Assembly: GCA_902785935.1 (NCBI GenBank)
Contig: CADAAN010000009.1
Coordinates: 1-34,067, forward strand
Direction: 5' to 3'
From: an uncultured Pseudomonadota bacterium
Lineage (GTDB): Bacteria > Pseudomonadota > Alphaproteobacteria > RF32 > CAG-239
Length of the DNA stretch: 34,067 nucleotides
Numbering within the stretch: the first letter of the stretch is position 1; every line of letters begins with the position of its first letter. Of the stretch, positions 1-24,928 are shown in pieces. Position numbers and translations under genes: made by a program. The notes under the pieces were generated by a model that saw only the letters and a program-made list of their open reading frames with translations, was not told where the DNA came from and did not search any database.

Positions 1-243
1 AAACTTTCAAGCAGTAACCTGCCGCAATAAATAAAAACGCGTTTAACATGCGTTAATGCGCTGAAAGTTTTGAGCGATGTGTACAAAAAAGCATACATAG
101 GCAAAAACTTTCAAGCAGTAACCTGCCACAATAAATAAAAACGCGTTTAACATGCGTTAATGCGCTGAAAGTTTTGAGCGATGTGTACAAAAAAGCGTAC
201 ATAAGCGAAAAACTTTCAAGCAGTAACCTGTTAAACGCGTTTT
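1..243. repeat. 104-bp tandem repeat, about 2.3 copies
   Basis: A unit beginning AAACTTTCAAGCAGTAACCT starts at 1, again at 105, and partially at 210, so the period is 104-105 bp. The first two copies differ at only a few positions. Each unit contains an inverted repeat (AAACTTTCA near its start, TGAAAGTTT about 60 bp later) and an ACGCGTTTAACATGCGTT segment. The array lies immediately downstream of the virB8 stop codon and starts at the window edge, so more copies may lie outside. Short reading frames inside it are repetitive and have no recognisable product. I see no convincing promoter or terminator in it. Confidence 0.85.
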
Positions 244-245
244 TT

Positions 246-998
246 TTATAAGATTTCGACTTCGGTTTGCGAATACCTGACAACCGTGAACCCTAAAGGA
301 TTCATCAGCCTTTTGGCCATAAACATACGTTCTTTGATAAAAAATGCCGTTACGGAAGCTGTCCAATAGCGCGTTGTTAAAACCATACGACCTGTCTCTG
401 AATTTTGCGTTTGAGGAGATAAATCATATGTTCTGAAATCAACCTTCCATACCGGACTGCGCTCACCGCCGACTTTGGCAACAGATATCACCTCAACATC
501 ACGCACAACTTTTTCTCTGAGTAAATTGTTCATTTCAGGCACTTGTTGATTGTTAAAATCGATAAAAACGCGTGGCGCCGAAAGATAGTTGACAATGCCG
601 CCTGCAAACCATCTTGCCTGCATTTCGCGTTCGTCATTAATGACGGCATTGCGCATCGTGACATATTGTTTAATAAATGTTTCCATCATCTGTTTGTTGG
701 AGGCCATATCTTGCGCAATTGTCTCATACCTGACCATTGAATCGGAATTATCCTGTCTGATAATTAAAAACGGCTCAATCGTCACCAATGGCGCCATCCG
801 AAACAAGACAAGCGACGCACTTGCAAAAAAAGCAAGCGAGACAATGCACACCAAAATAGTCAACCTGGCAACCCACTGATAGTACGCTTCTTTTAACTTC
901 GACACTTTGGGCGCATCGACTGATACATACGCTTGATTTAAACCATTAGGAGCATCAAGACTTAATGTTTGTTGATTATTTTCTAAGCGATTATTCAT
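246..998 (-). CDS. virB8: VirB8-like type IV secretion inner-membrane protein
   Basis: The 250-residue product has a short cytoplasmic N-terminus, one transmembrane segment at about residues 45-68, and a periplasmic domain of the VirB8/TrbF type (NTF2-like fold). The periplasmic part carries MAPLVTIEPFLI followed by an ETIAQDM...FIKQYVTMRNAVINDE block, which is how VirB8 proteins look after the membrane helix. VirB8 is a bitopic scaffold that joins the inner-membrane complex to the periplasmic core in VirB-type systems. The ATG at 998 is preceded by GAGG at a suitable distance and follows the 1303-residue gene by 14 bp, so it belongs to the same operon. It is the last gene before the tandem repeat. 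VirB9, VirB10, VirB11 and VirD4 are not visible and may lie beyond the left edge. IcmL/DotI is a related alternative. Confidence 0.75.
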   Translation of the reverse strand: MNNRLENNQQTLSLDAPNGLNQAYVSVDAPKVSKLKEAYYQWVARLTILVCIVSLAFFASASLVLFRMAPLVTIEPFLIIRQDNSDSMVRYETIAQDMASNKQMMETFIKQYVTMRNAVINDEREMQARWFAGGIVNYLSAPRVFIDFNNQQVPEMNNLLREKVVRDVEVISVAKVGGERSPVWKVDFRTYDLSPQTQNSETGRMVLTTRYWTASVTAFFIKERMFMAKRLMNPLGFTVVRYSQTEVEIL

Positions 999-1012
999 TG
1001 ACCATCCTCATT

Positions 1013-4000
1013 TTAGTATCTCGCTCTGAAGGGTTCTTCAAATTGTTCCATATTTCTTTCAAACTCGGCCATCGCTTCTTCACCGTATCTGCCGATAACC
1101 TGATTATCTGCACGCTTTGTTTTAATCTTTTCTGTCAGTTTCGTATCAGGCTCTGTATTATCCGAAATAAAAACAAGCTCTTCATTATCCATTTCCAATG
1201 CGCGGCGCATACGATCAAGTTTAGCTTTGCGCTCAATCAAGTATTCACTTTCAAATGGCATGGGCAATTGACCTTCAAGCTTCAAACCTTCAGAAATAAA
1301 CAGATTCTTGTTGTCTTCTAAACATTTCAAAACAGCATCATATGTCGTTTGGTTAGCAATATATTCGGCAACACTCAATTTTTCAGGCATCGGAATATTC
1401 GGGCAATAAGCATCTTGTAATACCTCTTCTATATCACGCCGCGCTTCATCCATTTTGACTTTAAGATTATCAAGCTCTGTTTGATAAATTTCTTCGGTAT
1501 CAACAAACATCAGATAATCACCAATTTGATTGCGCGTCAAAAGGCGATGCTCATATTCTTTTATCTCATCTACATCGGCTTCGCTGTCTTCATCAAAATA
1601 AGCCATAATGTCCATAATTGACTTTGTAAATGTCAAGCCGTCATCATACTTAAGCAAAAGTGACAATTCTCCAACCGGTAGTTTTGCGGGACTTTCACCT
1701 TTTGCTTTCAGAAATTGTTCATTTTCGACATATTGCTTTATATCACTTAAAAAAGCTGTCAACGGATTATTTGACTTTTCTCTGCCATTTAAGATTTGAG
1801 CAACATCAACATCGCGTTCAACAAAACCATTTGGTTCCAATATCAGCAGCCAAATCTCCGGCACATAATTGATGGCTGCTAAAAATTCTTTGCGCGATGT
1901 TTTGACCTGATTATTCGGCAAAATTATTTTCAAGACATTTTCAAAATCTGCCCCGTCAAAGTGCAAAACTTCGCGCAACGGCGGATATCTTTCAGCCGTC
2001 AGCGCTTTCGGCGCCGTAAAATCACGGGCTTTCGGAGTTAAACCTACAAAGTAGAGCGTATCGGGTTTATCACAACCTGCACCGGCGCAATCACCATTAA
2101 GCATTGCAAGATAAATGACATCAGATGCATTATTGACAACAGAACTGCTGCTGATAACAATGCCCGCTAAACGCTTTGTTACCGACGCTACTGCTGCTTT
2201 TTTAATTTCTGCAAGCATTTGTTTATGAATACTCAAAACCAACTCGCCTTGTGTATACTTTTCTTCGCCCAAAGCAACAATTTTTTGATGCGCGCGGTTA
2301 ACGGCCTGCTGTGCATTTTGCCTAAAGCCCTCAAACACGGAACGTGCTATGGCATAAATTTCATCTGTATAAGTATCTCCTGGCGGCGCACCTGCAATAA
2401 CGGGCAAACTTAAACCGGAAAGATTTGCATCAATCAGGTGATGCATATCATCAAAATAGGTTGCTTCTAAGGCAACGGCTTCGGTAATATAATCTTTTTG
2501 TGCCGATTTTATATCTTCATCATATTTTCTGACATTTTCATTTAATCTTTCCATTGTTTCTTCATCAGCTTCGACACCTTCTAAAACCGTTTCTGCCTGA
2601 CTTTCCGCGCTTTGAGCGATATTTTCCTGCTCTTTGATATTTTCATCGGCAGTTTCTTTGTCTCGACTGACATATGACGGATCTTTTTTAAGTCTTTCAT
2701 CGGCCACATTTTTTGAAAGATTTTCACTTTCGATTTGTGAACGCGCGCCGTCAACTTCGCTTTTAAGCGTATTATAATGCGTTTTTTTCTCGTTCATTTT
2801 TGCTCTTAAATCGTCAATTTGAGCAAATGCTTCTTCCTTCTTTTCTTCCAAAAGAGCTTTTGTCTTTGCATATTTTTCAGACAAATCAAGCATATCTTGA
2901 TCAAATTTTTGTTTCAAAGCGGCAAGAGCTGACTGTTCCGTCGTCGCAAATTTTTTTTCAAAAGCTGTTGCATCTGAAGAAATTCGCGTTGAAGTCTGAT
3001 TTTTTATCTGATGCAATTTTTCTTCCAGTTTTTTTCTGTAAGCAGCAACTTTTTGAGCTTTATTTTCATCATCATCTGATAAGCTGTTCTTATACGCATT
3101 AACATCATTTTCATCAATTTTCATAGCATTGCTTATTTTTTTTGCAATGTCAAAAACCGCCACTTGCGCCTGAGGCTGATTAAAAAAGACCAGCATATTT
3201 TTGTATTTTTCTAAGATATATTGATCATAAAAAAGCTTTTGATCTTCCCAAATAGGATATGAAATTTGTCCGCCTTCATCTTTTCCGAGCTTTTTTGAAA
3301 TTTCAGAACCGATTTGCCAACGATTAAGATCCTGAGCTCTTAATTCCTCTTCGGCATATTGCCCCGTTGATTCGTCCTCAAGCTTTTGATTGCCTATAAC
3401 CGCCGATAAACTTTTTTCACCTGAAGATAAATCAACGTCTGCATTCGTATTGATAATCGGCAGATTTAAGGCATCATTACCAAGCGCAAGCACACTATCT
3501 GCTTTTGCAAGCTTAAAAGCATCAATTGCTTCTGCCGACAAACCGCGTCTTTTATCATATGCCGTCACGGAAAAAACATCATCAGGACAAGAGATAAGAG
3601 GACGCTCATAAATTTCATAACCCGTATCTGCCACACAACCGGTGGGGCTGATGCATCTTTCGCCGACCTTAACGCTTTTATAGTTGCATCCTTTTCCAAA
3701 CCACAAATCCGCGGCATCTTCGGCAGGCAAATATGTGCGCCAATAATCATAAACGTTTTTTTCAGATTGAGCCAGTTTTTCAATAGCCTTTTCGTGCAAC
3801 AAAGTCATCTTGGCATATTCGATAAAAGGCCCTCGCAAATCAGGCATTTGCTGTTTCATATTATGCATTTTTTGCGCTTTGGAATAAAGTTGATATATGC
3901 CGTCCAAAACAGGCAATGCCTTTAAGTTATCTTCTGCCCCCTCAAACGGAGAATGTTCTTTATATTTGGGCGATGGCACAAGCTCTAGCCCCTTAGGTTC

Positions 4001-4924
4001 TGTTTTCGGCGATGAAACAGTCTTTTCCTTTTTGGGCGCGACAGATTCTTTTTTTACCTTTTCTGTAAGAAAAGCTTGTGCAAATGAACTTTTTTGCGTC
4101 TTTTCATAATGCTTTAGGTCAAAACTTGTCTTATCCGAATCCTTAGAATCCTTAATTTTTTCATCTTCATTAACGGGTTCCAAATTCTTTTGCAACGACA
4201 TTGCCGCTTGTGATTGAATTTTAAGCGCAACCAATTCTTGCATCATACGCGCATAATTATCTTTAATCTTATGAAGCTTATATTCATTGACCACATTGCC
4301 CAGTTCTTCATCTGAAGGCGATGCACTTTGACATGTTGCGGATATACCTTCGTTGCCCTGAACAAAACACTTGCTGAGCTCTTTGATTTCTTTTTCAATG
4401 GCGGGCAATCTTTTTTCTTCCAAATCCCTGACGGCAACGTCAAGCTCCAACGTACTGTCATTTGCAAATTCAATACGCTTGTTTCGATAAACTTTTTTGG
4501 CATATTCGCGATTTTCAACCGGCAAATAATTGATTAAATCCATCGGATACTTTAAAAACAGTTCGTGAAATTTTTTAGACACCTCTTCTTCATTCGTAAT
4601 ATCAATTGTTTTTGACGGCACAATTTCTTTTAATGCGGGATTTGTCGGTTCTCCGTCTTTTTTCTTTAAAGGAGATTCATCTGTTTTGAAAGGAATAAAA
4701 TTACCAGCCGATTTAATGTCATTTAAGTTACCTTCGAGATCTTTTTGAAAATCTTCAATTTTCGTCTGCGCATCCTTAAAAAAGTTTTTGACAGCCAAAA
4801 TCGCATCTTGAGGGATATGAGCCGTCGGCGTACCGGGTCCCGGAGGTGGTTCCATAAAAGCAAATGATGCCTTTGTGATAAAAAACAGGATACCTGCCAA
4901 AACAAAACTTTTATGTTTTTTCAT
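1013..4924 (-). CDS. Giant secreted coiled-coil protein in the T4SS operon
   Basis: The 1303-residue product starts with a signal peptide (MKKHKSFVLAGILFFITKAS, ending near SFA) and a Pro-rich stretch. Long charged alpha-helical segments follow. The clearest coiled coil spans roughly residues 625-820 (many EEKK, LRAKMNEKK and ERLKKD runs). A Cys-rich patch lies near residues 415-460 (KGCNYKSVKVGERC, SPTGCV) and a GDCAGAGCDK motif near residue 940. I recognise no catalytic domain and see no polytopic membrane region. It starts one base after the preceding stop, with AGGAGA five bases upstream, so it is translationally coupled. Its place between virB4 and virB8 suggests an exported structural or surface component of the secretion apparatus. 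That function is inferred from context only. Confidence 0.7.
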   Translation of the reverse strand: MKKHKSFVLAGILFFITKASFAFMEPPPGPGTPTAHIPQDAILAVKNFFKDAQTKIEDFQKDLEGNLNDIKSAGNFIPFKTDESPLKKKDGEPTNPALKEIVPSKTIDITNEEEVSKKFHELFLKYPMDLINYLPVENREYAKKVYRNKRIEFANDSTLELDVAVRDLEEKRLPAIEKEIKELSKCFVQGNEGISATCQSASPSDEELGNVVNEYKLHKIKDNYARMMQELVALKIQSQAAMSLQKNLEPVNEDEKIKDSKDSDKTSFDLKHYEKTQKSSFAQAFLTEKVKKESVAPKKEKTVSSPKTEPKGLELVPSPKYKEHSPFEGAEDNLKALPVLDGIYQLYSKAQKMHNMKQQMPDLRGPFIEYAKMTLLHEKAIEKLAQSEKNVYDYWRTYLPAEDAADLWFGKGCNYKSVKVGERCISPTGCVADTGYEIYERPLISCPDDVFSVTAYDKRRGLSAEAIDAFKLAKADSVLALGNDALNLPIINTNADVDLSSGEKSLSAVIGNQKLEDESTGQYAEEELRAQDLNRWQIGSEISKKLGKDEGGQISYPIWEDQKLFYDQYILEKYKNMLVFFNQPQAQVAVFDIAKKISNAMKIDENDVNAYKNSLSDDDENKAQKVAAYRKKLEEKLHQIKNQTSTRISSDATAFEKKFATTEQSALAALKQKFDQDMLDLSEKYAKTKALLEEKKEEAFAQIDDLRAKMNEKKTHYNTLKSEVDGARSQIESENLSKNVADERLKKDPSYVSRDKETADENIKEQENIAQSAESQAETVLEGVEADEETMERLNENVRKYDEDIKSAQKDYITEAVALEATYFDDMHHLIDANLSGLSLPVIAGAPPGDTYTDEIYAIARSVFEGFRQNAQQAVNRAHQKIVALGEEKYTQGELVLSIHKQMLAEIKKAAVASVTKRLAGIVISSSSVVNNASDVIYLAMLNGDCAGAGCDKPDTLYFVGLTPKARDFTAPKALTAERYPPLREVLHFDGADFENVLKIILPNNQVKTSRKEFLAAINYVPEIWLLILEPNGFVERDVDVAQILNGREKSNNPLTAFLSDIKQYVENEQFLKAKGESPAKLPVGELSLLLKYDDGLTFTKSIMDIMAYFDEDSEADVDEIKEYEHRLLTRNQIGDYLMFVDTEEIYQTELDNLKVKMDEARRDIEEVLQDAYCPNIPMPEKLSVAEYIANQTTYDAVLKCLEDNKNLFISEGLKLEGQLPMPFESEYLIERKAKLDRMRRALEMDNEELVFISDNTEPDTKLTEKIKTKRADNQVIGRYGEEAMAEFERNMEQFEEPFRARY

Positions 4925-4925
4925 G

Positions 4926-6158
4926 TCATTCTCCTTTCCTGCCGCCTTGTTCTAAGTCGCCTTTAGTCGTTTTATATTGATCTAAGTCAATCTGTGCAGA
5001 ATTTTTGTTTGGGTTGTTTTGCCGATAATCTTGGTGAAGCAATGTTTCTGAACTTTCCAGTTTTAAAATCGCTGATTCGATAACAAAATCATCTGCCATT
5101 CGCTCAAATATCATAACCGCCTGATCGTTTGTAATCGCCCTTCTGGTATCAACCGCCACATCGGCTTCTTTAATATTAAACTTTGTATCATCATTTTTTT
5201 CTTCAACTTCGTTTGTTTTTATTCTGGTATTCGCAATTGCCACAAAAGCAGAAGCAATATCATCTTTAAATACCTCTCGTCTGTTTTTATTGATTTTTTT
5301 TGCGCTTTTATCATCTAAAGCTTTGTCGGCAGATACAAAATTGGCATCTTGAGCCTCATCATACATCTTCTTTTTTTGCTCTTTTGTGTATGAAATCAGT
5401 TTTCCGACAGCCATCGCCGCGATACCGCCCGCAGCCCCAATCAGGGCAGTTTTGGCATCTTCAAGTTTTTGATTTGTTTCTTCCAACTTTCGATTTAAGT
5501 TTTGATATTCTTCATCGCTTTCAAAATAATCATCATTTCCGCCCAAAACATCGGCTAAATTTTGCTCATACGTCGACTTTTGATCTTGCGTTTCCTTAAT
5601 TTTTTCATCCGCAAGTGCTTTTTCCTCATCCGTTGATGCCAATTCGGCAAGCGCCTGATATATCTTTTCATTTTCGGCCGCATTTTGAACACGCGCCGAC
5701 AGCTCTTCTTTTAAGACCTTTTTTCTGGCATTGATATCCTCATTGATCTGTGCGCGCTCTTTTTCCAGCGTCAGGGTCGATGCTGTTTGAGTACTTTCAA
5801 GATGCTCCATTCCCTCTTCATAAGTACTTTTTCCGATATCATAGACTTCTTTGCCTTTGTCATATGTTTTTTTGGCCTCATCGTACATTTCCTTGCCGGC
5901 TTTGATGTCACTTTTAAGTTTACCGAGTTCAGCTTGCGCTTTTTCATAAGCAACAATCAGTTTTTGGCCGGTTTTGCTTTCCTGAAATTTTTTTGCCGCC
6001 GCGTTAACTTTGTCAAGCGCATTGGTTTTTAGTGTCGAAATGGTAGCCGATGCGCTTTCTCCTTCTGCGGCAACATCAATTTTCAACCCTGCCGATGCTA
6101 AACCGGCATGCAAGACAAAAAAAGCAAAAATGATATAAAAAAGTCTTTTATTATTCAT
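4926..6158 (-). CDS. Secreted coiled-coil protein of the T4SS operon
   Basis: I place the start at the ATG at 6158, because GGGAGG lies five bases upstream and this start gives a clean signal peptide (MNNKRLFYIIFAFFVLHAGL, cleavage near ASA). The upstream in-frame ATG at 6173 overlaps that ribosome-binding site. The product is about 410 residues. A long heptad-rich region (YDEAKKTYDKGKEVYDIGKS and similar) covers about residues 40-235. It is followed by a Gly/Ala hydrophobic segment (ALIGAAGGIAAMAVGKLI, about residues 235-252) that could be membrane-associated, and a charged C-terminus. The start overlaps the previous stop by eight bases. The compositional style matches the neighbouring coiled-coil genes. 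No known domain was recognised. It might be a very divergent VirB5-type protein. Confidence 0.65.
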   Translation of the reverse strand: MNNKRLFYIIFAFFVLHAGLASAGLKIDVAAEGESASATISTLKTNALDKVNAAAKKFQESKTGQKLIVAYEKAQAELGKLKSDIKAGKEMYDEAKKTYDKGKEVYDIGKSTYEEGMEHLESTQTASTLTLEKERAQINEDINARKKVLKEELSARVQNAAENEKIYQALAELASTDEEKALADEKIKETQDQKSTYEQNLADVLGGNDDYFESDEEYQNLNRKLEETNQKLEDAKTALIGAAGGIAAMAVGKLISYTKEQKKKMYDEAQDANFVSADKALDDKSAKKINKNRREVFKDDIASAFVAIANTRIKTNEVEEKNDDTKFNIKEADVAVDTRRAITNDQAVMIFERMADDFVIESAILKLESSETLLHQDYRQNNPNKNSAQIDLDQYKTTKGDLEQGGRKGE

Positions 6159-6867
6159 CTTGACCTCCCTCATCTTCGGCGCTGCTTCTGACCATACCGC
6201 TCAAAGCCGTTGACATTCTGTATTCTTGGAGTGTCGCTTCAAGCAAAATGTTTTCGCGATACCGCTTGATAGAAGCAATCTGAGCCTCTTGAGCAAGCTT
6301 TTGTGCCGTTAACATGTCTTCGGGATTTTCAATTTCATCGGATTCCTGAGCCAGTTTTTGACGCGTAACAAATGCTTTTGCAAATGCATTGGCAACCTCA
6401 ATACCCTCTTTCCCGTTCAAAACTTTGGCCAATTTTTTCTGATTTTCGATGGAATTATCACCCTTTTCGCGCGTCATTGTTTCTAAAACGGCATCTTCCT
6501 GTTCCGTTGTCACTTTTGAACCGTCAAACAAACCCTTTATGCCGGATAATTCAACATTTTGCAAAGCGCCCATAATATCACCGTTTTTGATTGCTTCTAC
6601 CGTCGCCATTGTCTTTTTGACGGTATCTTCTATGGCCGATTTTGCAGAATCAAATTGTCCTTTTGCTTGGTTTAATAATCCTTTTGCTTGTGTTTCGGTC
6701 GCTTTGACGGCAGACTCAGCCTTTTTAACAGCAGCAACTTGTTCTTTAAAAGATTCTATTTTAGTAAGTTCCCGCTCTGTTTTTTCCACCGGTTCCATAT
6801 CCGCTTTTACTTCAAAAGTCAAAAGCGTCATTATCACCAAAACAACAATGTCAATTACTTTTTTCAT
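6151..6867 (-). CDS. Secreted VirB5-like helical protein (tentative)
   Basis: The chosen start is the ATG at 6867, which overlaps the upstream stop as ATGA. It begins with a signal peptide (MKKVIDIVVLVIMTLLTFEV, then KA). A longer in-frame start at 6894 would put nine extra residues before the signal sequence. The product is about 238 residues and almost entirely helical, with an Ala/Lys-rich first half (KAESAVKATETQAKGLLNQA) and a C-terminal part rich in Leu and Glu (YRENILLEATLQEYRMSTAL). This size, export signal and helical make-up, two genes after virB4, fit a VirB5/TrbJ-type minor pilus component. No diagnostic motif is visible, so the assignment rests on position and composition. Confidence 0.6.
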   Translation of the reverse strand: MKKVIDIVVLVIMTLLTFEVKADMEPVEKTERELTKIESFKEQVAAVKKAESAVKATETQAKGLLNQAKGQFDSAKSAIEDTVKKTMATVEAIKNGDIMGALQNVELSGIKGLFDGSKVTTEQEDAVLETMTREKGDNSIENQKKLAKVLNGKEGIEVANAFAKAFVTRQKLAQESDEIENPEDMLTAQKLAQEAQIASIKRYRENILLEATLQEYRMSTALSGMVRSSAEDEGGQDE

Positions 6868-8684
6868 TGCTGAGCATCCGTATAGTTTTGACAATATGAT
6901 ACAATCGAATCAATCACCGACATCTCTAAGATACCGGCCTTGATTAAAAGCGTATCTTTTTGCACGTCGACATCAACACTTGTAATTTCCGCATTGCCGC
7001 CTAACTGACTTGTCACAGACCCCGAAGCCGCGGTTTTGACATTGTCAAGATCTTCTTCGGTTTGTGTTGTCGAATATTTTTGTTTCATCTCTGAGGCAAA
7101 AGCAAAATTAGCCGCAATCGCCTGTGCACGCAATTTATTAAACCTATCCATATTTTCTTGCTGAACACTGCTATCAGTTGCATTTAAATCCTCACAAATC
7201 GTTTTAATACAGCACGACATGGCATCTTCATCAATTTCAAAGCTCTCATCAGTTGCATTATCAAATCCGATGCAACACCAATCTGCAAGTTCATCGGGCA
7301 ACACACGACCTGATTTTTCATTAAAACCGACTTTGCCGCAGTTCTTCGGACACGTTTGTTCCTCGGCAAAACTCATTGAAATATAGCTGTTGTACGATAC
7401 TCTACCGAAAGCCTTCGGCCCAACATCTTTTTGCGGAGAAACTGCTTTAGGAGCAACTGATTGTGTACTTTGCGGTGAGGTGTTTTTCATAATCGCAGGT
7501 TCTTTGCTTTGCGACGGAGCTACAGAAACGGCAGATGCTTTTTTATCATTATTTGCGGCACCTTCTTTTATCAAATCACCTTTTTTAAGCTCTGCATCAG
7601 CATTCAGTTTTCCTTCTGTTATATCTGACGCTTCTGTGCCGGTATCGGCGCCCTCTTCCCACATGCCGTCAAGCGCCTCGATATCCTCCTTAGTAACAGG
7701 AGATACAACACCTTTTTGTTCTTTAATTAAAATGTCTTCACTCTGAGCCTCATCTGTGCCAAACATTTCACTCGGCAAAACAGGCGCAACCGCAGGCAAA
7801 ACAGGTGTAACACCCCCCGTATAGTTTACACCGGAGGGATTAGTGGATATAACGGCAGGCCTTGCAGGCGCAATCGTCTGAACTGCTGGCGCATTATAAG
7901 GCAACGTATCTTCATCATCTACAAACAAATCATCCGTGATATTAAAATTCTCTTCTTGTGCATACCAAGAACCATCATCACTTTCAAGCGTACTGCCGAT
8001 TGAAAAACCAGTTCCGCCCAAAGCTTCCGACCCTGAACTCTCTCGTCCAAAAGCCTGACTGACCGTATCTTTAGCATTATTGATTTGATTTTTGGCTTCA
8101 TTGACCGTATTAACGGCGCCTTCAATCTGGCCTCTTGCACTGTTAACGGCCTCTTGTGCGTCATTATAGGCTTTTTTGGCTTCATTAATGGCTGAATCAA
8201 CCTGCTTTTTTCCTTCTTCATAAGCTGTTTTTGCTTGTCCGTAGGCCTCTTTTGCATCATTGATATAACCTTCAGCCTGTTTTTTGACACCGTCAACGTC
8301 CTTTTTTACCTCATCATATTTCTTTTTAGCTGCGTCATATTTCTTTTTGGCTGCATCATATTTTTTCTTTAGCTCAGCAAATTTTTGCATTCTTTTTTGC
8401 TGTTTTTCCATTTTTTCTTTTTTCTTTTGCGCTTCCTTTGCCGGATCTTTTAATTTGGTAATACCTGCCAGATTATCACCGAGCGTTTGCTGAATATTGA
8501 CGGTCGACATGGTCGATTCAACCTCTGACATTTGTTTTTGCGCTTCTGTTGCTTTTGTTTCAATCGCTTGCGCTATAGCTGATATATCAAATGTCGGCCA
8601 CAAAAATGCATTTGCCCGCGCCGAATACAGCATCAAAACAGCTGCCATAACACCGCTTGTTTTCAAAAAACATCTTTTCATCAT
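6864..8684 (-). CDS. Secreted coiled-coil and Cys-rich T4SS-operon protein
   Basis: The 606-residue product starts MMKRCFLKTS with a signal peptide ending near ANA. AGGAGG lies five bases before the first ATG. Residues about 20-70 (FDISAIAQAIETKATEAQKQ) resemble the N-termini of VirB5/TrbJ-type proteins. Residues about 75-215 form a long Lys/Ala coiled coil with near-exact KKKYDAA repeats. A Ser/Thr/Pro-rich linker follows, then a C-terminal Cys-rich domain (TCPKNCGK, WCCIGF, SCCIKTICEDL) that probably forms disulphides in the periplasm. A 66-bp gap separates it from virB4, larger than elsewhere in the operon. A weak TTGAAA with 17-bp spacing to AAGATT lies there, so an internal promoter cannot be excluded. 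The function is unknown; context suggests an exported T4SS component. Confidence 0.65.
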   Translation of the reverse strand: MMKRCFLKTSGVMAAVLMLYSARANAFLWPTFDISAIAQAIETKATEAQKQMSEVESTMSTVNIQQTLGDNLAGITKLKDPAKEAQKKKEKMEKQQKRMQKFAELKKKYDAAKKKYDAAKKKYDEVKKDVDGVKKQAEGYINDAKEAYGQAKTAYEEGKKQVDSAINEAKKAYNDAQEAVNSARGQIEGAVNTVNEAKNQINNAKDTVSQAFGRESSGSEALGGTGFSIGSTLESDDGSWYAQEENFNITDDLFVDDEDTLPYNAPAVQTIAPARPAVISTNPSGVNYTGGVTPVLPAVAPVLPSEMFGTDEAQSEDILIKEQKGVVSPVTKEDIEALDGMWEEGADTGTEASDITEGKLNADAELKKGDLIKEGAANNDKKASAVSVAPSQSKEPAIMKNTSPQSTQSVAPKAVSPQKDVGPKAFGRVSYNSYISMSFAEEQTCPKNCGKVGFNEKSGRVLPDELADWCCIGFDNATDESFEIDEDAMSCCIKTICEDLNATDSSVQQENMDRFNKLRAQAIAANFAFASEMKQKYSTTQTEEDLDNVKTAASGSVTSQLGGNAEITSVDVDVQKDTLLIKAGILEMSVIDSIVSYCQNYTDAQQ

Positions 8685-8750: not shown

Positions 8751-11183
8751 TCAGGCAATATTTAAATATTTTGTAACAAAGTTGTCTTCACCGTATTCTT
8801 TGATTAAACTTTCAACCAATAAAACATTCTTTCTGCCCGAATTATAAAGCTTTAAGTACGGGCCCAAAGCACCTAAATTGACATCCAAAATCACCGATTC
8901 GCCGGTTGCCGGCCGTGAAAGCAAAATAGCATACGGAAAATCGCGATATGTCTTGCCAAACACAAAATCAAGTTCACTTTGCGTTAAGTTCCACGTCGCA
9001 TAATCTTCAGGCATGGCTTGCGGGTTTCTGAAAAACAAAATCGTTTGGCATTGACCGCGGATAACCTCACCGACGCCTAATTTATCAATGATATTGGGCT
9101 GTTGAAAGGCGCACAGATAAGCCTGACGTTTTTTACGACCTTCCTGCAAACCGATGATAAAATAATCTCTGAACATCGGGTGCTTAAGCATCGGCGCCGT
9201 TTCATCGATCATAATCAGCGATGGCACGCCCGTTTCACCCGTTTCGCTTTGAATACGATGCATAATATAGCTGATGACGGCCGGTGCTAATGTATCATCT
9301 TCAAAAATATGCGTAAAGTCAAACGCCATAAAACGTTTTGATTTCAAATCAAGACTGTCGTTTTCGGCATTAAAAATATTACCGTACTGCTCAGGATTAA
9401 CCCAGCGATACATTTCCCGCCTCATATTTCCCGTCGGCGAAAAACAGCTTTTATAAAGGTTTTTCATAATCCTTTCTTCCGGCCTTAAATAATCAAATGC
9501 GGTTGTCACGGCACGCCCGATTTCACGCTCTGACAAGGCATCATCCGTCATCGTAATAGCCTTCATCCAGCGTCTTAAAAAGGCGCGGTTGTTCGGGGTA
9601 TCGGCCGCATCAAACGGGTTTAACGACACATTTTTGTTATCTCCGTCAAAACCGACATAAGCCCCTCCGATGGCGCGTGTAAAGATTTCCGCACCCCGGT
9701 GACGATCAAAGAAAAATACTTTCAAATCCGCATGTCGCATGGCTTGTCCGGCCAAAAACGTCAACAAAGTCGTTTTACCTTGACCTGTCGGACCGATAAT
9801 GCAACAGTGCGCCACAGCACTTTCTTCAGAAGATACATGAAATTGAAAACGATAAGCTGAACCTGACATTGTCCTGAAAACCGTAATTGCCCCCGGCCCC
9901 CAGTCTGACTTATCAAAACCGGCCGCCGGCTTATCAAATGACAAAGCAAGCGCCACAATCCGTGACAAATAGCGATAAGTTCTGGGATACGTATCATAAG
10001 TCGGAAATTGGCTGAAAAATGTGGCTTGCGTCACCCAGCCCTCTCTGACCGGCGTCACCGAAAACGTACGGCAAATACGCTGAACTTCACTTTCACCGAA
10101 ATCAAGTTCTTCCTGCGAATGGCCTTTGATAATCACGCTCATTGCATATTCGGTCAAAGCTTGATAATCCGCATCACTGTTTTCAATCGCGGACAAGGCT
10201 TCACTGTATTGATCCACGACACCCGCAGAAAAAGATGTCAGCGTCGCCATTCTTTGTTGTTGTATCAGCATCATTCTGGCTTGCGGCCTAAAAATCGGAC
10301 GGATATTGTGCATCAGCACCAATTCGCAATCAATCGCCAAAAGAGAAGTGACCATACTTTCATCCATATAATCACCTGTTGTACGGATACCCATCACAAT
10401 TTCGTACAAGTCTTTATCGCCCGAAAAAAAGCGAATAATACCTTTTTCTTTTGTAAAGTGGATATGATCACCGGTCAACATCTCATTAAGCTCAGGCCCT
10501 TGAGCTTGGCGCACCTTCGGCGTCGGCTTTGAAACAGGGCTGCACAACCTTGAAAACACATAAAACGGACTGTCCGTTGCCGGACTGTCTGCGCTTTCAT
10601 ACATCTGAAACACCCCGTATTCACCAAGGGTTGCAATAATTGATTGGCAGGCGTAATTGAGGTCTTTTAAGGCGTCTTTTCTGTCCGCAACACTGACAAT
10701 CATATAATGCGTGTTTGAATATAATCTGTCCATATTTTCTGACCACACTTCGGATACTTTTTGCAAAATCGCATTATTAAAGTTTCCGCTGTCGGCTTCT
10801 TTTTGCGTCCGCTCACGAAGTGTAATGACGCGACAAACAATCGACAACTCGGACAAACTGTCAATGGTCGATTTTCTGGCTTCCATCATTGAATATGCTT
10901 TTTCAGGCGTCGCTGAGGATAAATCAACACCGTTTAGCCTGAAAACACGCACATAACTTCCGTTAATGCATTTAATCGTGATACCATCTTCCATCAAACT
11001 TGCAAACGGCAAAAAATCCGACACGCGCGATTCTCTGGGAGAAGGCAAAACCCAATTACCGAATTTTGTGGCAAGCAACACGGCAAATGCCGCGGCCGAA
11101 ATCATACCGACAATGGCAAGCATCACCTCGACGCTTGTCAAGCCTTCTACAAAAATAGATGTAAAATCAAAACTAGGGTTCAA
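8751..11183 (-). CDS. virB4: VirB4-type T4SS ATPase
   Basis: The 810-residue product is the VirB4 ATPase that energises assembly and substrate transfer at the cytoplasmic base of the secretion channel. It has an N-terminal hydrophobic stretch (about residues 15-40), the VirB4 N-terminal region, and a C-terminal RecA-like domain. Walker A is GPTGQGKT at residues 464-471. Walker B is LIMIDETAP, with D660 and E661. Later motifs (GLQEGRKKR, AFQQPN, RGQCQT) are typical of the family, and length is normal. The start is a TTG at 11183, supported by GGAGG eight bases upstream. That ribosome-binding site lies inside the last codons of virB3, so the two genes overlap by 11 bases and are probably coupled. 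Confidence 0.95.
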   Translation of the reverse strand: MNPSFDFTSIFVEGLTSVEVMLAIVGMISAAAFAVLLATKFGNWVLPSPRESRVSDFLPFASLMEDGITIKCINGSYVRVFRLNGVDLSSATPEKAYSMMEARKSTIDSLSELSIVCRVITLRERTQKEADSGNFNNAILQKVSEVWSENMDRLYSNTHYMIVSVADRKDALKDLNYACQSIIATLGEYGVFQMYESADSPATDSPFYVFSRLCSPVSKPTPKVRQAQGPELNEMLTGDHIHFTKEKGIIRFFSGDKDLYEIVMGIRTTGDYMDESMVTSLLAIDCELVLMHNIRPIFRPQARMMLIQQQRMATLTSFSAGVVDQYSEALSAIENSDADYQALTEYAMSVIIKGHSQEELDFGESEVQRICRTFSVTPVREGWVTQATFFSQFPTYDTYPRTYRYLSRIVALALSFDKPAAGFDKSDWGPGAITVFRTMSGSAYRFQFHVSSEESAVAHCCIIGPTGQGKTTLLTFLAGQAMRHADLKVFFFDRHRGAEIFTRAIGGAYVGFDGDNKNVSLNPFDAADTPNNRAFLRRWMKAITMTDDALSEREIGRAVTTAFDYLRPEERIMKNLYKSCFSPTGNMRREMYRWVNPEQYGNIFNAENDSLDLKSKRFMAFDFTHIFEDDTLAPAVISYIMHRIQSETGETGVPSLIMIDETAPMLKHPMFRDYFIIGLQEGRKKRQAYLCAFQQPNIIDKLGVGEVIRGQCQTILFFRNPQAMPEDYATWNLTQSELDFVFGKTYRDFPYAILLSRPATGESVILDVNLGALGPYLKLYNSGRKNVLLVESLIKEYGEDNFVTKYLNIA

Positions 11184-11463
11184 ATTTATTTCCTCCCTCA
11201 GGATACAAATTTTTAGATACTTTATTTGTCTGACCGAATGCCTGAATCATTGTTGATAAATGCGGTTCTCTGACACCGGCCGCCACGATGGCCAAATGGC
11301 ATGTTACAATGGATAAAACAAAAAGTAAAGGGTTAACATCAGCAATACCCACCGCCATAAACATCACCGGCACCTGAATACCGGCATTGATGGCTGTCGG
11401 CAAAACAGGCCCCCAAAAAAGTTTCGGAGGCTGTGCCACTGCTTTTAATATCATATCCCTCAT
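11173..11463 (-). CDS. virB3: VirB3-like inner-membrane protein
   Basis: The 96-residue product has the size and layout of VirB3: a short N-terminus with an AVAQPPKLFWGPVLP motif (family form: hydrophobic-xxRPxLFxGV), two closely spaced hydrophobic segments (about residues 20-40 and 45-62), and a hydrophilic tail. VirB3 docks the VirB4 ATPase to the inner membrane. The ATG at 11463 is preceded by GGAAG. The gene's final codons carry the ribosome-binding site for virB4. It follows the large VirB2-like fusion gene after an 86-bp gap that contains a hairpin. Confidence 0.85.
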   Translation of the reverse strand: MRDMILKAVAQPPKLFWGPVLPTAINAGIQVPVMFMAVGIADVNPLLFVLSIVTCHLAIVAAGVREPHLSTMIQAFGQTNKVSKNLYPEGGNKFEP

Positions 11464-11549: not shown

Positions 11550-13004
11550 CTACTCAATAGAATTGATAATCGTTCCTGTTTGTTCAACACCTTGCTGAAC
11601 GGTACCAAGCGTGCCGCCGACAAAACCCGTGCCGGTATTAATACCATCATGAACATTATCAGCTTTATCGCCAATTTTATCCAAAGCATTACGAAAACCG
11701 GAATTCCACTCACCATCTTCATTTTGGCCGTTCCACCAGTTGCTGTAATTATTTTCACCCGTCGGATTATTTTCATAATTCGTATTAAAGAGTGAGGCCA
11801 AATTGGTCGAACCGCCCATTGCATTGTTCATATTGCTTAAAGTATTCTGCAAACCGCCGTACATATTATTGTTTGCTGTGGTTATTGAACCCATAATTTC
11901 CTGAATACTGTTCGCAATTGCCCCCAAATTGCTGTAATCACCGTTTTGGATGGTCGCAATAATATTTTCAAAACCCTGACCGGTTGTCTTTAATGTATTC
12001 CAAGCACTGACACCCGCACCGATGGCATTTGTTGCCGTGCTGACAGCTTGTTGAGTCCCCTTCATGATATTGTTCAATGTTGTCATGATGCTTGCTTTGC
12101 ATTGACCGAGTTTGTTAATTTTACCGCCCTCGCAAACTTCCGAGCTCGTCATTACGTTGCCGTTTGCGTCTATTTCACAAACCGTTCGTCTTAATGTTTG
12201 AGGGTCCCAAGCCCCTTTCATCGTGATAGGATTGCACCCTGCATTAATGACAGCCGTTCTTTGTTCCATACCGGCAAGACCGCCGCCCAATCCTTCAGTA
12301 GAAACCAAACCCTGAAGATCGGCACTTTCTATCGCCGACAAACCGGCTTTTCGTTGTTCAAATTCTTCTTCGCTCGGCATGTCACCGTCATAAGCTGCAT
12401 TTGTAATTTCTTTATAACCCGTTCCCTGAACATATTCATACGACACATTCGGGTCTAAAAAGCTCTTAAAAGTTAATTCTCGTTGCTGTTGCAACGCCGC
12501 CGTCGTATACCCACTGAAATATTCAATAAACGGAAACATCAAAGCCAAAAGCGAAAGCCCGATCATAATATAACCGAGATGCTTATAGCTGATTTTGTTA
12601 AAAATAGCCATCACGGCAAACATCACAAGTCCGAAACCGGCAATCACATAGACAATTTCACGCAAATCCATCAAAGTATTGTACAGTTTACTCTCAATCG
12701 TCGTGAATATTTCCTTGGCGTTTCCGTCTTGCGCGCTTGAAGATGAACCGCCCGAAGATGACGTTTTAGCACTCGACGAAGATGTGTTTGTAGGAGATGG
12801 CGTTGAGCCTTTGGGTTCAATAATCGAACCATCCCAAAGCTGATTAGAGCTTCCGGGCGTCCAACCGCTGCCTCCGGACGTGCTGTTGCCGTACTGAGCT
12901 TCATATTCTTCCGTGCCCGGCGCCCACTGTGCCTGAGTATCAAAGGACGCAAACACAATAACAAAAGCCAAAACCATTGCAAGTGCTTTTAATATCTTTT
13001 TCAT
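11550..13004 (-). CDS. VirB2-like pilin core with long extensions
   Basis: The 484-residue product has a signal peptide (MKKILKALAMVLAFVIVFAS), then a Ser/Gly/Thr-rich region to about residue 90. A two-helix hydrophobic core at about residues 105-170 (REIVYVIAGFGLVMFAVMAI, then HLGYIMIGLSLLALMFPFIE) matches the core of the two short VirB2-like proteins encoded upstream. The rest, about 300 residues, is a non-membrane extension. It contains four cysteines (NAGCNP, RTVCEI, SEVCEG, GQCKAS) and an Asn/Gly/Thr-rich tail that suggests a surface-exposed adhesin-like region. The family's usual length is about 100-130 residues, so this is a fusion or an elaborated minor pilin. It has a good GGAGA ribosome-binding site and is third in the operon. 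The role as a modified or tip pilin is inference. Confidence 0.65.
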   Translation of the reverse strand: MKKILKALAMVLAFVIVFASFDTQAQWAPGTEEYEAQYGNSTSGGSGWTPGSSNQLWDGSIIEPKGSTPSPTNTSSSSAKTSSSGGSSSSAQDGNAKEIFTTIESKLYNTLMDLREIVYVIAGFGLVMFAVMAIFNKISYKHLGYIMIGLSLLALMFPFIEYFSGYTTAALQQQRELTFKSFLDPNVSYEYVQGTGYKEITNAAYDGDMPSEEEFEQRKAGLSAIESADLQGLVSTEGLGGGLAGMEQRTAVINAGCNPITMKGAWDPQTLRRTVCEIDANGNVMTSSEVCEGGKINKLGQCKASIMTTLNNIMKGTQQAVSTATNAIGAGVSAWNTLKTTGQGFENIIATIQNGDYSNLGAIANSIQEIMGSITTANNNMYGGLQNTLSNMNNAMGGSTNLASLFNTNYENNPTGENNYSNWWNGQNEDGEWNSGFRNALDKIGDKADNVHDGINTGTGFVGGTLGTVQQGVEQTGTIINSIE

Positions 13005-13028: not shown

Positions 13029-13406
13029 TTAGTCGTACACAGAACCGGTAGCACCCGTTGTTAATGTGTCCGTAATACCTTTAACCGATACATCGGCTCC
13101 CGTTCCGGCTGTTAAATAACTGACCAAACCGGCCGTTGTTGCAATAACGACAATACCGATGATGATGGCAGCAAGCCATTTCCAGTTTAATGCGCCGAAA
13201 ATCGCACCGATAGCCACCGCAATAACACCAAAACCCGCGGCGGCAAAAATGATTTTACGCATGCCGCCGAAAATTTCCCATCCCGTTGATGTCAAATTTT
13301 CAAAAACGGCATAACCCTCGCTTGCACATAAAATTGAAGACAAAGCAAAGGCCAAAAGCCCCGCAAACAAATATTTGTATCCTTTCTTTAAGTTTATATG
13401 CAACAT
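13029..13406 (-). CDS. virB2: VirB2-like T4SS pilin (second copy)
   Basis: The 125-residue product has an N-terminal signal segment (YLFAGLLAFALSSILCASEG) and two hydrophobic helices (about residues 50-70, RKIIFAAAGFGVIAVAIGAI; about 75-95, WLAAIIIGIVVIATTAG) separated by a short basic/aromatic loop with WKW. This is the VirB2/TrbC pilin layout. Its core closely parallels the genes on both sides. A Gly/Thr-rich tail follows the second helix. GAGG precedes the ATG. It lies 81 bp after the first pilin gene, with a strong hairpin between them, and 24 bp before the fusion gene. Confidence 0.75.
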   Translation of the reverse strand: MLHINLKKGYKYLFAGLLAFALSSILCASEGYAVFENLTSTGWEIFGGMRKIIFAAAGFGVIAVAIGAIFGALNWKWLAAIIIGIVVIATTAGLVSYLTAGTGADVSVKGITDTLTTGATGSVYD

Positions 13407-13442
13407 CTTTTACTCCTCTGTATTCGTTCAAAATAATCTTCC

Positions 13443-13477
13443 AAGGAAGCTTCGAAAGAACGTTTCGAAGCCTCCTT
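13443..13477 (-). other. Strong hairpin after the first VirB2 gene
   Basis: A 15-bp inverted repeat (AAGGAAGCTTCGAAA at 13443-13457; TTTCGAAGCCTCCTT at 13463-13477, one G-T pair) has a 5-nt loop and lies between the first and second VirB2-like genes. The sequence after it on the minus strand (GGAAGATTATTTT) is only weakly T-rich. It could act as a partial terminator or a 3' stability hairpin that raises the level of the first pilin mRNA over the downstream genes. Confidence 0.6.
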
Positions 13478-13487
13478 GATAAAAAAA

Positions 13488-13862
13488 CTACCAGCTGTTG
13501 ATGCTGTCAGCTGAACCCGTACCGGTTTGCTTAAATGTATCACTATAATTTGTGGTCGTAACATTTGACCCTGTTGCGTATTCAATCAAAGCACCGGCAG
13601 CGGCCAATACGCCAAGACCTACGGCGAGCGCACCGAACCAAGGCCATTTGACCTTACCGAAAATTGCCTGAACGGCAAGACCGACAAGACCGAAACCGCC
13701 GATGACGAACACAATCGTTCTGACGGACTTAAAAACGTTACCCGCTTTAACAATTGCATCACCGACAACGGTATTTGCAGCCGAGGCATCACCCGTCATG
13801 GCAACCATCAAAACAAGCGCCAATCCGAACAATGTCCACATGTTATTTTTTGAAAGTTTCAT
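13488..13862 (-). CDS. virB2: VirB2-like T4SS pilin (first gene of operon)
   Basis: The 124-residue product has a signal peptide (NNMWTLFGLALVLMVAMTGD, cleavage near ASA) and two hydrophobic helices, about residues 45-65 (SVRTIVFVIGGFGLVGLAVQ) and 72-92 (WPWFGALAVGLGVLAAAGAL), with a short KVKWPW loop. This matches the VirB2/TrbC pilin family in size and topology. VirB2 forms the extracellular conjugative-type pilus and channel surface. It is the first gene of the long minus-strand operon, has GGAGA as ribosome-binding site, and is followed by a strong hairpin. I infer that it is the major pilin. Confidence 0.8.
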   Translation of the reverse strand: MKLSKNNMWTLFGLALVLMVAMTGDASAANTVVGDAIVKAGNVFKSVRTIVFVIGGFGLVGLAVQAIFGKVKWPWFGALAVGLGVLAAAGALIEYATGSNVTTTNYSDTFKQTGTGSADSINSW

Positions 13863-14271
13863 GATATTTCTCCTTATAAATGAAAACTTCTTTATACAAT
13901 TATAGAATATCAGATTTTTTCGACTTTTGCGAGTCTTTTTTGATTATCCGATTTTTTGCCAACATATTGATTTTTCGTCAAAACCGTTCCGTGTAACAAA
14001 AAATTCATAATCATCTGACATTCAAAAACACTTTTATCTATACCTCAAAAAAGTTAATACATCCTAAATACTTTATATATTGAATATTCAATTTCAAAAA
14101 CACGCAACAAAAACATTTTTAAATGCCTTAAAAAAAACACTTTTCGCCATTAACCCAATTTTAACATAATTTGTGCTATTGTGTTCTAAAATGAACCGAC
14201 GAAAAGCGTTCAATTATGTTTAATTGATTGATTTTTCGCTGTTTTTTAGATTTTGGAGTAATAATAAAAAA
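13863..14271. promoter_or_regulatory. Divergent intergenic region between T4SS and pilus operons
   Basis: These roughly 400 AT-rich bases separate the two divergent operons and must hold both promoters. On the minus strand a TATAAT box lies at 13899-13904, 37 bp before the VirB2 start, without a good -35. On the plus strand a TAAAAT at 14187-14192 with TTAACA at 14161-14166 is only a weak candidate because the spacing is too long. A perfect 14-bp palindrome, ATTGAATATTCAAT, at 14079-14092 could be an operator. No reading frame with recognisable content was seen. Confidence 0.45.
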
Positions 14272-16104
14272 ATGCAAAAAAATAACGTTAAAAGTTTTAT
14301 TTGCAGTTTTATGTTTTCCGTTTTGGGCGTCATTGCCGTCCAAAAGGTCTTCTTTCGTGCGCCCGAAATTAAAAAAACAGAAGATATTTCTGCCGTTGAG
14401 GTTAAAAACATATCGCTTTTTGCCGACAAATCAGTTGAAAAAGATGATTTTTCCGCTCTTCGCGCTGAACAAACGGCAAATATTGACGTATCTGAAATTG
14501 CGGCACTCAGCGCGCCTGAAAAAATCGATTTGCCCGCTTTGGAAGAAAAACCGACTCAAGCACATACTGTTAAAGTGCAACCTGTTGTTACAGAGCAACC
14601 GATTGAGACAGTTCAAAAAGCAGATACAATAACCGATCTTGCCTATGCAAGCGAGATTACGCTTGATCCCGAAGAGATAAAAGAAATTAATGAGACTCAA
14701 AAGCATATCAACAGCGGCATTGTTTATGCAGATATCAGCGATACGCTCTCTGAAATTCCGTCACAAGAAATGCCACAGGATAAAAATCTTGTTGTTGCAT
14801 CGGCACAGGAAACTGCTGAAGAAATTCCTTTGTCTGAAAATGATACGCTTTTGCATAACAAAATCGATGTTTCAAATGAAGAAGTTCAATCCAAAATTGC
14901 CATGATAGAGCCGAACACGCTTATCAACAGCATTGAACAAGATGATATTTTGAGTGAAGAAAAAAATCTTGCCGAGGCAAATATCAAAAACAGCGAACTT
15001 TCGGAAATGTTTGATATATCTCAAACAAATTCAGAGCCTGAAGTTGATGAAAGTGCATGGCAAACGGCCAAAGCTGCCTCAGCAGAAGATTTTGAAGAAA
15101 GCACCGACGTCGCACAAAACCAAGAGGATAAAGACAGCCCTTGGGTCATGGCAAAAGGCAACAAATATGCAAAAAACCATGCTGTTGTTGAAGAATTTGA
15201 GCAAAAAGAACATACCTTAAATCAAAAAGAAAATATTTCTTCTGAGCCTGCTATATCCGAACAAGCAACACCCGAAGACAAGACAGAAGAAACTAAAGAA
15301 CATCAAGAACAGCTTGAAGAGAAAAATACCGATGAAAAATCATCTTTAGGCGAAGAAGTTTCTTTGTTTGATTCAAAAGATGAAGAAGATACTTTTAAGC
15401 AAGCTCTTTCCGAACCGCTTTTAAAACAAAAAAAGACGGATACAAAACTTGCCTATCAGATGATTCAGAACATTTTGATACCGATTCCCCAAGACATTTT
15501 AAACGATGCGGATTTAACGCCTGATTTAACGTCATCTCCGGAAGAAAAAGAACTTTCGGGAAATGTGCGGGTCAAAAAACCGGATTTAAATAATGAAGAA
15601 AAACAAACAGGCTTGTTTAAAAGTATTTCATCTTGGTTTTCTAAAGACAAGAATCAAAGAGATGATGAAGCATCAAAATCCAATGAAGCAGCCTCAAACG
15701 GACAAGCATCCGATTCATCATCCTTAAAACAAAAAGTTTATTCCGCGCTCGGTATGGTTGATGATTATAAACCCATACCTGCCGGTTCAATTATGCCTGC
15801 GGAACTTCGTCTTTCGTTCCAGCCGAACAGAGCCGAAATTTCAGGGCAAACTTTGAAGTGGATATACGCTTTTGCCGACAATGCACGTGACAACAACGAT
15901 GTTTATATCGAAGTGCGCATTGACGGCACAAGTTCGTATGTCTTACAACAAAAACGTTTGAATTTACTCTCAAGCATTTTCAGTGCCCGAGGTGTCGATT
16001 GGCGAAAAATCAACACCATCTTCACTTCACGTGAGCCAAATTCATTTATTATCAGAAATATTCGGTTTAACAATAAAGAAAAGGAAGGACAGAATATGAA
16101 ATGA
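14272..16104 (+). CDS. Membrane-anchored acidic protein with OmpA-like C-terminus
   Basis: I prefer the ATG at 14272, preceded by GGAG 13 bases upstream, over an in-frame TTG at 14224 that adds 16 unlikely residues. The product is about 610 residues. A transmembrane helix lies at about residues 8-28 (SFICSFMFSVLGVIAVQKVF). A very acidic, low-complexity region of about 450 residues follows and is probably disordered. The last 100 residues (ELRLSFQPNRAEIS, then VYIEVRIDGT and QQKRLNLLSSIFSARGVDW) resemble a divergent OmpA-type peptidoglycan-binding domain. It is the first gene of the pil operon. This suggests an inner-membrane-anchored protein that spans the periplasm and steadies the pilus machine at the cell wall. 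It has no clear counterpart in the R64 pil order. The domain call is tentative. Confidence 0.6.
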   Translation: MQKNNVKSFICSFMFSVLGVIAVQKVFFRAPEIKKTEDISAVEVKNISLFADKSVEKDDFSALRAEQTANIDVSEIAALSAPEKIDLPALEEKPTQAHTVKVQPVVTEQPIETVQKADTITDLAYASEITLDPEEIKEINETQKHINSGIVYADISDTLSEIPSQEMPQDKNLVVASAQETAEEIPLSENDTLLHNKIDVSNEEVQSKIAMIEPNTLINSIEQDDILSEEKNLAEANIKNSELSEMFDISQTNSEPEVDESAWQTAKAASAEDFEESTDVAQNQEDKDSPWVMAKGNKYAKNHAVVEEFEQKEHTLNQKENISSEPAISEQATPEDKTEETKEHQEQLEEKNTDEKSSLGEEVSLFDSKDEEDTFKQALSEPLLKQKKTDTKLAYQMIQNILIPIPQDILNDADLTPDLTSSPEEKELSGNVRVKKPDLNNEEKQTGLFKSISSWFSKDKNQRDDEASKSNEAASNGQASDSSSLKQKVYSALGMVDDYKPIPAGSIMPAELRLSFQPNRAEISGQTLKWIYAFADNARDNNDVYIEVRIDGTSSYVLQQKRLNLLSSIFSARGVDWRKINTIFTSREPNSFIIRNIRFNNKEKEGQNMK

Positions 16105-16214
16105 TGTGACAATTCGAATACCTCTGGTAATAAGTTTGTCAAATCGCTTGATTATTCAAATAAGAGCTTTTATGATTGGAAAATAAAATGAAACACACAT
16201 TAAAGGACTTTACA

Positions 16215-18651: not shown

Positions 18652-18666
18652 AAAAGGATAAAAAAA

Positions 18667-21559: not shown

Positions 21560-21572
21560 TTGAGCTGAAAAA

Positions 21573-23225: not shown

Positions 23226-23236
23226 GATAATAAAAG

Positions 23237-24358: not shown

Positions 24359-24361
24359 AAA

Positions 24362-24928
24362 ATGGCAAAAAACGGCTTTTCAGATATCAAAAATATGTTG
24401 CGCCGCAATAAAACGGCGGCGCTTGCGTCGGGCTTAATCGTTGTTTTAGCCATTGTATTTTTGATTTTTTGGGGCTTGTCGTCCTCTTCAAAAACAAACA
24501 CCATTGCGCAAGAGGCGCTTGAAATTAATCAATCCGTCAGAAAAGCCTTTGGTGCGCGTGCCGATTACCGCGGACTTGACAGCTTAAATGCAATAAAACA
24601 AGGCATTATTTCCCCTGCCCTTATTCGCGGCGATAAAATATACAGCCGCCTTCAAAGCGAGATTTTTATCGGCCGAGATGAAGACGGCGCGATTTTACGC
24701 CCCGGTGACTATTATTTTAAGGTCACTTACAAAACCCTTGACAGACGCAAGTGTTTAGCGCTTTTAGAAGGTGATTTCGGCATTGATTCGGGACTGACAT
24801 CCGTTGAGGTCAAAAATGATGCGTATATTGCATTTACATACGGCGGCGAAAATACACTGCCGATAAACACTGAAGCGGCTTCAAAAGCCTGTAAAACAAA
24901 AAATATGATCATTTTAACTTTTGAATAA
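24362..24928 (+). CDS. pilS: PilS-like pilin-fold protein without prepilin site
   Basis: The 188-residue product occupies the pilS position, three bases after pilR. A single hydrophobic helix lies at about residues 19-37 (AALASGLIVVLAIVFLIFWG). The globular part contains RADYRGLDSLNAIKQGIISP, a pattern typical of PilS/bundlin-type type IVb pilins, and two cysteines (RRKCLALL and SKACKTKN) placed like the pilin disulphide. The N-terminus (MAKNGFSDIKNMLRRNKTAA) does not place a Gly directly before the helix and has no Glu at +5. Prepilin peptidase processing is therefore doubtful. It may be an uncleaved minor pilin or an assembly factor. It is the last gene of the operon and is followed at once by a terminator. 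Confidence 0.7.
   Translation: MAKNGFSDIKNMLRRNKTAALASGLIVVLAIVFLIFWGLSSSSKTNTIAQEALEINQSVRKAFGARADYRGLDSLNAIKQGIISPALIRGDKIYSRLQSEIFIGRDEDGAILRPGDYYFKVTYKTLDRRKCLALLEGDFGIDSGLTSVEVKNDAYIAFTYGGENTLPINTEAASKACKTKNMIILTFE

Follow-up and report, generated by a model that had tools for sequence, protein, structure and literature searches.

An expanded row of exported helical proteins at the VirB5 position of a type IV secretion system in uncultured gut Alphaproteobacteria

In the type IV secretion system (T4SS) encoded on contig CADAAN010000009.1 of an uncultured alphaproteobacterium (order RF32, family CAG-239; the two names are paired in one paper, PMC7676259), the one slot for which no member can be recognised is that of VirB5, and it is occupied by a row of four exported proteins, here called A to D (VirB1 and VirB7 were outside the search). 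The window, i.e., the whole stretch of DNA analysed, is this one complete contig (C9, 34,067 bases) of a 1.46 Mb genome that consists of 73 contigs and is 99% complete. Its minus strand encodes two VirB2-like pilins, a longer protein with a third VirB2-like domain, VirB3, VirB4, A, B, C, D and VirB8, in this order, after which the contig ends. We propose that A to D are an amplified and enlarged VirB5-like stalk or tip set of a chromosomal P-type T4SS passed on by vertical inheritance, a reading that we hold with moderate confidence.

A conserved row of exported proteins between virB4 and virB8

The four slot genes all lie on the minus strand. Protein A (606 residues; 6864..8684) combines a signal peptide with an N-terminal VirB5-like motif (WPTFDISAIAQAIE), a coiled coil and a cysteine-bearing C-terminal part. 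The open frame of B spans 6151-6894, but its real start is probably the ATG at 6867, which gives a protein of 238 residues (6151..6867) with a signal peptide, helices and a conserved C-terminal helical hairpin, characterized by alignment, AlphaFold2 and VIA-align. Likewise, the open frame of C (4926-6173) has its probable start at the ATG at 6158 and yields a helical protein of 410 residues with a signal peptide (4926..6158). D (1303 residues; 1013..4924), characterized by alignment, AlphaFold2 and its distribution, follows its signal peptide with a mainly helical body, a coiled-coil hairpin and a mixed C-terminal domain. A and B overlap in the sequence ATGA, B and C overlap too, two bases separate the stop of C from the start of D, and a purine-rich Shine-Dalgarno sequence precedes every start. 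An earlier note on this DNA had described four translationally coupled genes with products of up to 1303 residues between virB4 and virB8, and these overlapping or abutting junctions bear it out. It was also right about the signal peptides, of which each of the four proteins has one at its N-terminus, and partly right about cysteine-rich parts: A has nine cysteines (seven within residues 445-497, with C470 and C492 invariant among 27 positional orthologues) and D has ten, but B and C have none.

A to D are mostly helical and none is polytopic. Past the signal peptide no membrane span is predicted in them, a single weak hydrophobic stretch in the window's C being the exception, and none of 194 slot frames of relatives has a span after residue 60. 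Searches of A to D against Pfam and NCBIfam returned no family match beyond coiled-coil noise, the Pfam TrbL model did not match, and profile searches of the PDB gave generic coiled coils only. The AlphaFold2 model of D (residues 105-1303; predicted local distance difference test (pLDDT) 78, predicted template-modelling score 0.64) is helical with a mixed C-terminal domain, and predicts an antiparallel coiled-coil hairpin of ~170 residues near 666-836, made of two helices of ~80 residues each. For this model Foldseek and VIA-align returned only look-alikes with helical hairpins, such as pore-forming toxins and arms of structural maintenance of chromosomes proteins, at Z scores usual for long hairpins; we draw no function from them, and no known fold stands out.

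When one genome per species was searched with VirB4 of the window, 80 loci were obtained, nearly all from uncultured Alphaproteobacteria; many of the record titles name rumen or gut, and 'Azospirillum sp. CAG:239' is among them. Wherever the flanks suffice, in dozens of relatives, the order is constant: a type IVb pilus operon is divergent from one or more virB2 genes, virB3, virB4, the slot genes, D, virB8-I and virB8-II. This conserved gene order makes the row more than a chance arrangement. Three genes stand between virB4 and D in 26 of the 52 loci with a complete D, and two to six in the rest. D itself could be aligned over its full length for 53 orthologues, with 16 invariant columns, and within the order a D profile had matches in 106 of 125 genomes and in 16 of 16 genera, including the sole member of the second family; some D-negative genomes may reflect contig breaks. 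An unrelated insertion is ruled out by the synteny and by the order-wide occurrence of D, and the comparison of related genomes to which the earlier note had looked thus makes A to D a conserved part of the secretion locus, between virB4 and virB8-I/virB8-II. Positional orthologues were used after iterated hidden Markov model clustering of the slot proteins was dropped, as it drifted because of their coiled-coil composition. One record bearing this alphaproteobacterial locus (JAISVX010000001.1) is titled 'Lactobacillaceae bacterium' and is probably mislabelled.

A to D are the least conserved of the products compared in the locus. Median identity across relatives is 26.5-31% for the four proteins, against 84.5% for VirB4, 75% for VirB3, 61% for VirB2 and 57.5% for VirB8, and A to D stay at 28-43% even where VirB4 reaches 88-90%. 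Secretion and fast evolution would also suit substrates of the system, i.e., effectors or adhesins that are encoded within the operon and are no machine parts. We regard this explanation as improbable, given the Sec signal peptides, the translational coupling, an order from virB4 to virB8 that is fixed across RF32 and other families, and the near-constant presence of D while the number of slot genes varies.

Relation of the slot proteins to VirB5

The position between virB4 and virB8 is that of VirB5, and a Sec signal peptide without a further span is VirB5-like. The mature N-termini of A (WPTFDISAIAQAIE) and of P3 (QGWPTFDVAKLASLV), the latter being one of five slot proteins (P1-P5) of the outgroup family f74, resemble that of VirB5 (QGVPTFDGSQLGQLV) in the pattern PxFDxxxxA. 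Matches to DUF4141 just below the cut-off (best E=8e-7) turn up in some A proteins and in one protein of a sister family; this domain we take to be the start of the TraI proteins of Bacteroidetes conjugative elements, which occupy the same slot. A VirB5 profile of 32 proteins was compared with the slot families after stripping of signal peptides, and reversed profiles served as controls; we relied on the stripped comparison because scores with signal peptides left in were inflated. The scores were 33.8 for A, 31.1 for P3, 26.0 for C, 24.8 for P4, 22.9 for P1, 22.0 for B, 20.9 for D, 19.3 for P2 and 15.7 for P5, compared with at most 19.4 for reversed slot-family profiles and five control families, and at most 16.9 for further non-slot families. 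In the family-wide control, the top three 'control' families and at least one lower one turned out to be slot proteins of unlisted loci, the highest true control scoring 16.9. The matches of B, C, P2, P3 and P4 share one region of VirB5 (columns ~119-190). VirB5 itself is a three-helix bundle with a small globular appendage. When the helical AlphaFold2 model of B was submitted to VIA-align, VirB5 of R388 appeared at ranks 2 and 4 and spanned the whole model (7o3v, Z 9.6, root-mean-square deviation 7.8, 136 residues).

Several results weigh against a VirB5 origin. The VirB5 family model PF07996, which is insensitive and matches 10 of 240 class genomes, found neither A to D, nor ten outgroup slot proteins, nor anything else in the whole genome. 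The profile comparison does not get past low probabilities (18-30% for its two best families, 30% at maximum) and is suggestive only, and the scores of D, P2 and P5 are not clearly above the controls. The model of B is weak (pLDDT 65), its Z score against VirB5 lies within the range that the tool flags as common for helical models, the deviation is high, and Foldseek returned no significant match for it. The fast divergence of A to D also fits loosely constrained coiled-coil spacers. The lines that point to VirB5 ancestry are weak, and the case is suggestive. The earlier note had the row replace VirB5, which agrees with a genome devoid of PF07996 matches, but an expanded and diverged VirB5 set seems to describe the slot proteins better than a replacement does.

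Outside the order, a class-wide search found shorter homologues of D in other alphaproteobacterial families (frames of ~430-810 residues). Beside virB4 and/or virB8, the slot of these outgroups holds secreted proteins of ~210-420 residues (mostly 210-350), followed by one longer last member. In family f74, where P1-P3 have 226-262 residues, the first 230 residues of D find their counterpart in P4 (E=3.7e-15, 1.5e-15 and 2e-10 with the D profile in three genomes; hhalign 96%) and the remainder in P5 (hhalign 99%, E=6e-22). D therefore corresponds to two fused slot genes with long mid-protein insertions, and at some loci within the order (L030, L033, L039, L043) it is split in two frames. As judged from translations, folD or the ATP-synthase operon adjoins the locus in several outgroup families, which argues for vertical inheritance of the T4SS.

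A different explanation starts from proteins unrelated to VirB5: A to D would be a lineage-specific periplasmic scaffold or sheath that surrounds the channel and ties VirB8/VirB10 to the outer membrane, D being its spacer or collar. It would account for the lack of a recognised family, for the very large size of D with its long coiled-coil hairpin and for its place directly beside virB8, and it gains from giant VirB10 parts with beta-flower repeats, which suggest a generally enlarged envelope complex. We nevertheless consider it rather unlikely, since the slot is VirB5's, several outgroup forms have the size and N-terminal motif of VirB5, and the VirB5 profile scores of most slot families exceed those of the controls.

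According to the VirB5-derived model, A to D would be paralogous helical proteins that expanded from VirB5, reach the periplasm through Sec, assemble there on VirB6 much as VirB5 does in the R388 stalk, and form a composite stalk or tip with the VirB2 pilus that contacts other cells. We read the row as such a composite because A to D are the least conserved products, because VirB2 is multiplied, and because there are two precedents. In the first, the R388 model, the VirB6 platform is the docking site of VirB5, which the VirB2 pilus then carries at its tip (PMC12857230); in the second, the Trw system of Bartonella, VirB5 (TrwJ) and VirB2 (TrwL) are multiplied and TrwJ binds erythrocytes (PMC2610397, PMC3406051). 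By analogy with these systems, the set may assemble on VirB6 and VirB2, be exposed at the surface and have a binding role, and it is probably through the slot row, including the giant D, that the machine makes contact with other cells.

The slot proteins share with VirB5/TrwJ/TraC (PF07996) the place after virB4, the signal peptide, small helical outgroup forms, the PxFD-type N-terminus in A and P3 and a weak collinear profile similarity. Those systems have one protein of 200-250 residues, whereas here there are several together with a 1,300-residue giant, cysteine-bearing domains and no family match. Bartonella Trw resembles the present system in its repeated VirB2 genes and, provided that the VirB5 reading is right, repeated VirB5-like genes within a single chromosomal locus, and in its fast-evolving pilus parts. 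Its copies are tandem duplicates that include virB6-virB7, whereas virB6 is not duplicated with the set here, and the slot set is old, highly diverged and partly fused into a giant; moreover, Trw lacks VirD4, which is present here. The IcmX-DotA stalk of Dot/Icm (VirB5/VirB6 equivalents, PMC12857230), likened by description only, offers an earlier case of a large T4SS with a secreted and diverged VirB5-like element at its centre, although the Dot/Icm gene set differs. Multiplied VirB5 is already known in Bartonella, and what appears new is the combination seen here together with an order-wide giant slot protein. Our literature search found no paper with this combination or with such a giant, nor one that brings the name CAG-239 together with type IV secretion. 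More tentatively, with less than even confidence, we suggest that the order as a whole has its own T4SS subtype, in which a hetero-oligomer has taken the place of the single VirB5 tip: some three to seven secreted helical proteins, one of them a giant fused subunit, would form a stalk or surface structure unseen in studied T4SSs. If the VirB5 reading is true, the short outgroup slot proteins and the fused giant form a natural series for the evolution of the T4SS tip or stalk.

VirB6 and the remaining machinery

The T4SS has recognisable VirB2, VirB4, VirB6, VirB8, VirB9, VirB10, VirB11 and VirD4, and a VirB3 by position. All genes of the system in the window are on the minus strand. The two pilins (124 residues, 13488..13862; 125 residues, 13029..13406) match Pfam TrbC/VirB2 PF04956 above the cut-off (E=2.7e-7 and 2e-7, respectively), while the third, internal VirB2-like domain of the secreted 484-residue protein (11550..13004) remains below it (E=1.9e-4). 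In relatives this domain lies inside far longer secreted proteins of up to ~1,896 residues (L029 from 3864, L047 from 3873). The 96-residue virB3 product (11173..11463) had no match in a Pfam search and is assigned by its size, one transmembrane stretch, the position before virB4 and 56-95% conservation in relatives. The VirB4 ATPase (810 residues; 8751..11183) matches NCBIfam VirB4_CagE (E=1e-110) and virB8-I (250 residues; 246..998) matches PF04335 (E=3.4e-17). A repeated intergenic element downstream of virB8 (window 1-240) is truncated by the contig end, and the assembly break at base 1 is probably due to it.

Since the contig of the window ends at base 1, virB9, virB10 and virB11 are found on a separate contig, C44, which carries virB8-II, virB9, giant virB10 parts and virB11. 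A third virB8 is located on contig C17, making three VirB8 genes in the genome, and a VirD4-like coupling protein is encoded at C11:33564-35783 (E=1e-42). We infer the adjacency of C9 and C44 from the gene order of relatives: in the three read in detail, D is followed without interruption by virB8-I, virB8-II, virB9, two virB10-type frames and virB11. Of the 12 relatives compared, 11 have virB11 on the contig and strand of virB4, ~20-25 kb farther downstream (no match-up was possible for the twelfth, G133). In the VirB10 region of C44 (3130-11019) the frames are very long and rich in beta-flower repeats, and here only the last of them carries the TrbI domain; relatives have two frames of ~1,100 and 1,240-1,525 residues.

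Contig C12 carries four TrbL/VirB6-like matches in tandem, the best of which (E=4.9e-6) is at the Pfam cut-off; their frames have up to seven hydrophobic stretches, the first being the signal peptide. Searching with one VirB6-like query recovered such an array in 11 of 12 relatives, and in six of the 12 it begins 6.6-7.3 kb past virB11. The suggestion of the earlier note that the row replaces VirB6 as well, for which the occupation of the usual virB6 place would speak, is therefore contradicted by this array in the same genome and in relatives; since, in addition, no protein of the row is polytopic, we regard it as very improbable. No polytopic VirB6 is visible in the window, as had been stated, but the genome does have one. 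The parts that the note proposed to look for on the left are dispersed here over C44 (virB9 to virB11), C12 (virB6) and C11 (virD4), while virB11 does lie downstream in the relatives mentioned. One of the VirB6-like proteins on C12 (986 residues; 13307-16267) contains an M23 peptidase domain and could be a stand-in for the VirB1 lytic enzyme.

The parallel with Rickettsiales drawn in the earlier note is correct as to place: in Anaplasma the order is sodB-virB3-virB4-virB6-1 to -4 (PMC7648143), so that the virB6 genes directly follow virB4 where A to D stand here. The rvh system of Rickettsiales, with multi-copy VirB6 and duplicated VirB8 as hallmarks (PMC11077975), resembles the present one in being chromosomal and scattered in islets, with several extended VirB6 and several VirB8 genes (PMC2653234, PMC11077975), but it is defined as being without VirB5 and has no analogue of it. 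The well-studied Alphaproteobacteria with multi-copy VirB6 are thus described as without VirB5, whereas in this uncultured animal-gut order the opposite has occurred and the VirB5 position grew. The relaxase family PF03432, the single relaxase type searched, was found in none of 49 genomes of the order, a result that leans towards protein delivery. If the VirB5 reading is true, these common gut Alphaproteobacteria stand out as bearing a complete T4SS whose exported parts change fast.

Neighbouring genes in the window

The divergent type IVb pilus operon, which adjoins the T4SS in many relatives, occupies 14224-24928 on the plus strand and encodes TcpQ, a secretin, PilO, an ATPase, T2SSF and a PilS-type pilin. 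Beyond it, two BspA-type leucine-rich-repeat secreted proteins are encoded on the minus strand (24953-26080 and 27646-28509). This genome has 90 matches to PF13306, whereas none of 48 other genomes from the order has more than one. Among 29 BspA-type frames read (a few counted twice), 24 end in a near-identical tail of ~24 residues (RIYTIDEANxVAGKTNxFxIRYR), which looks like a putative sorting or anchoring signal.

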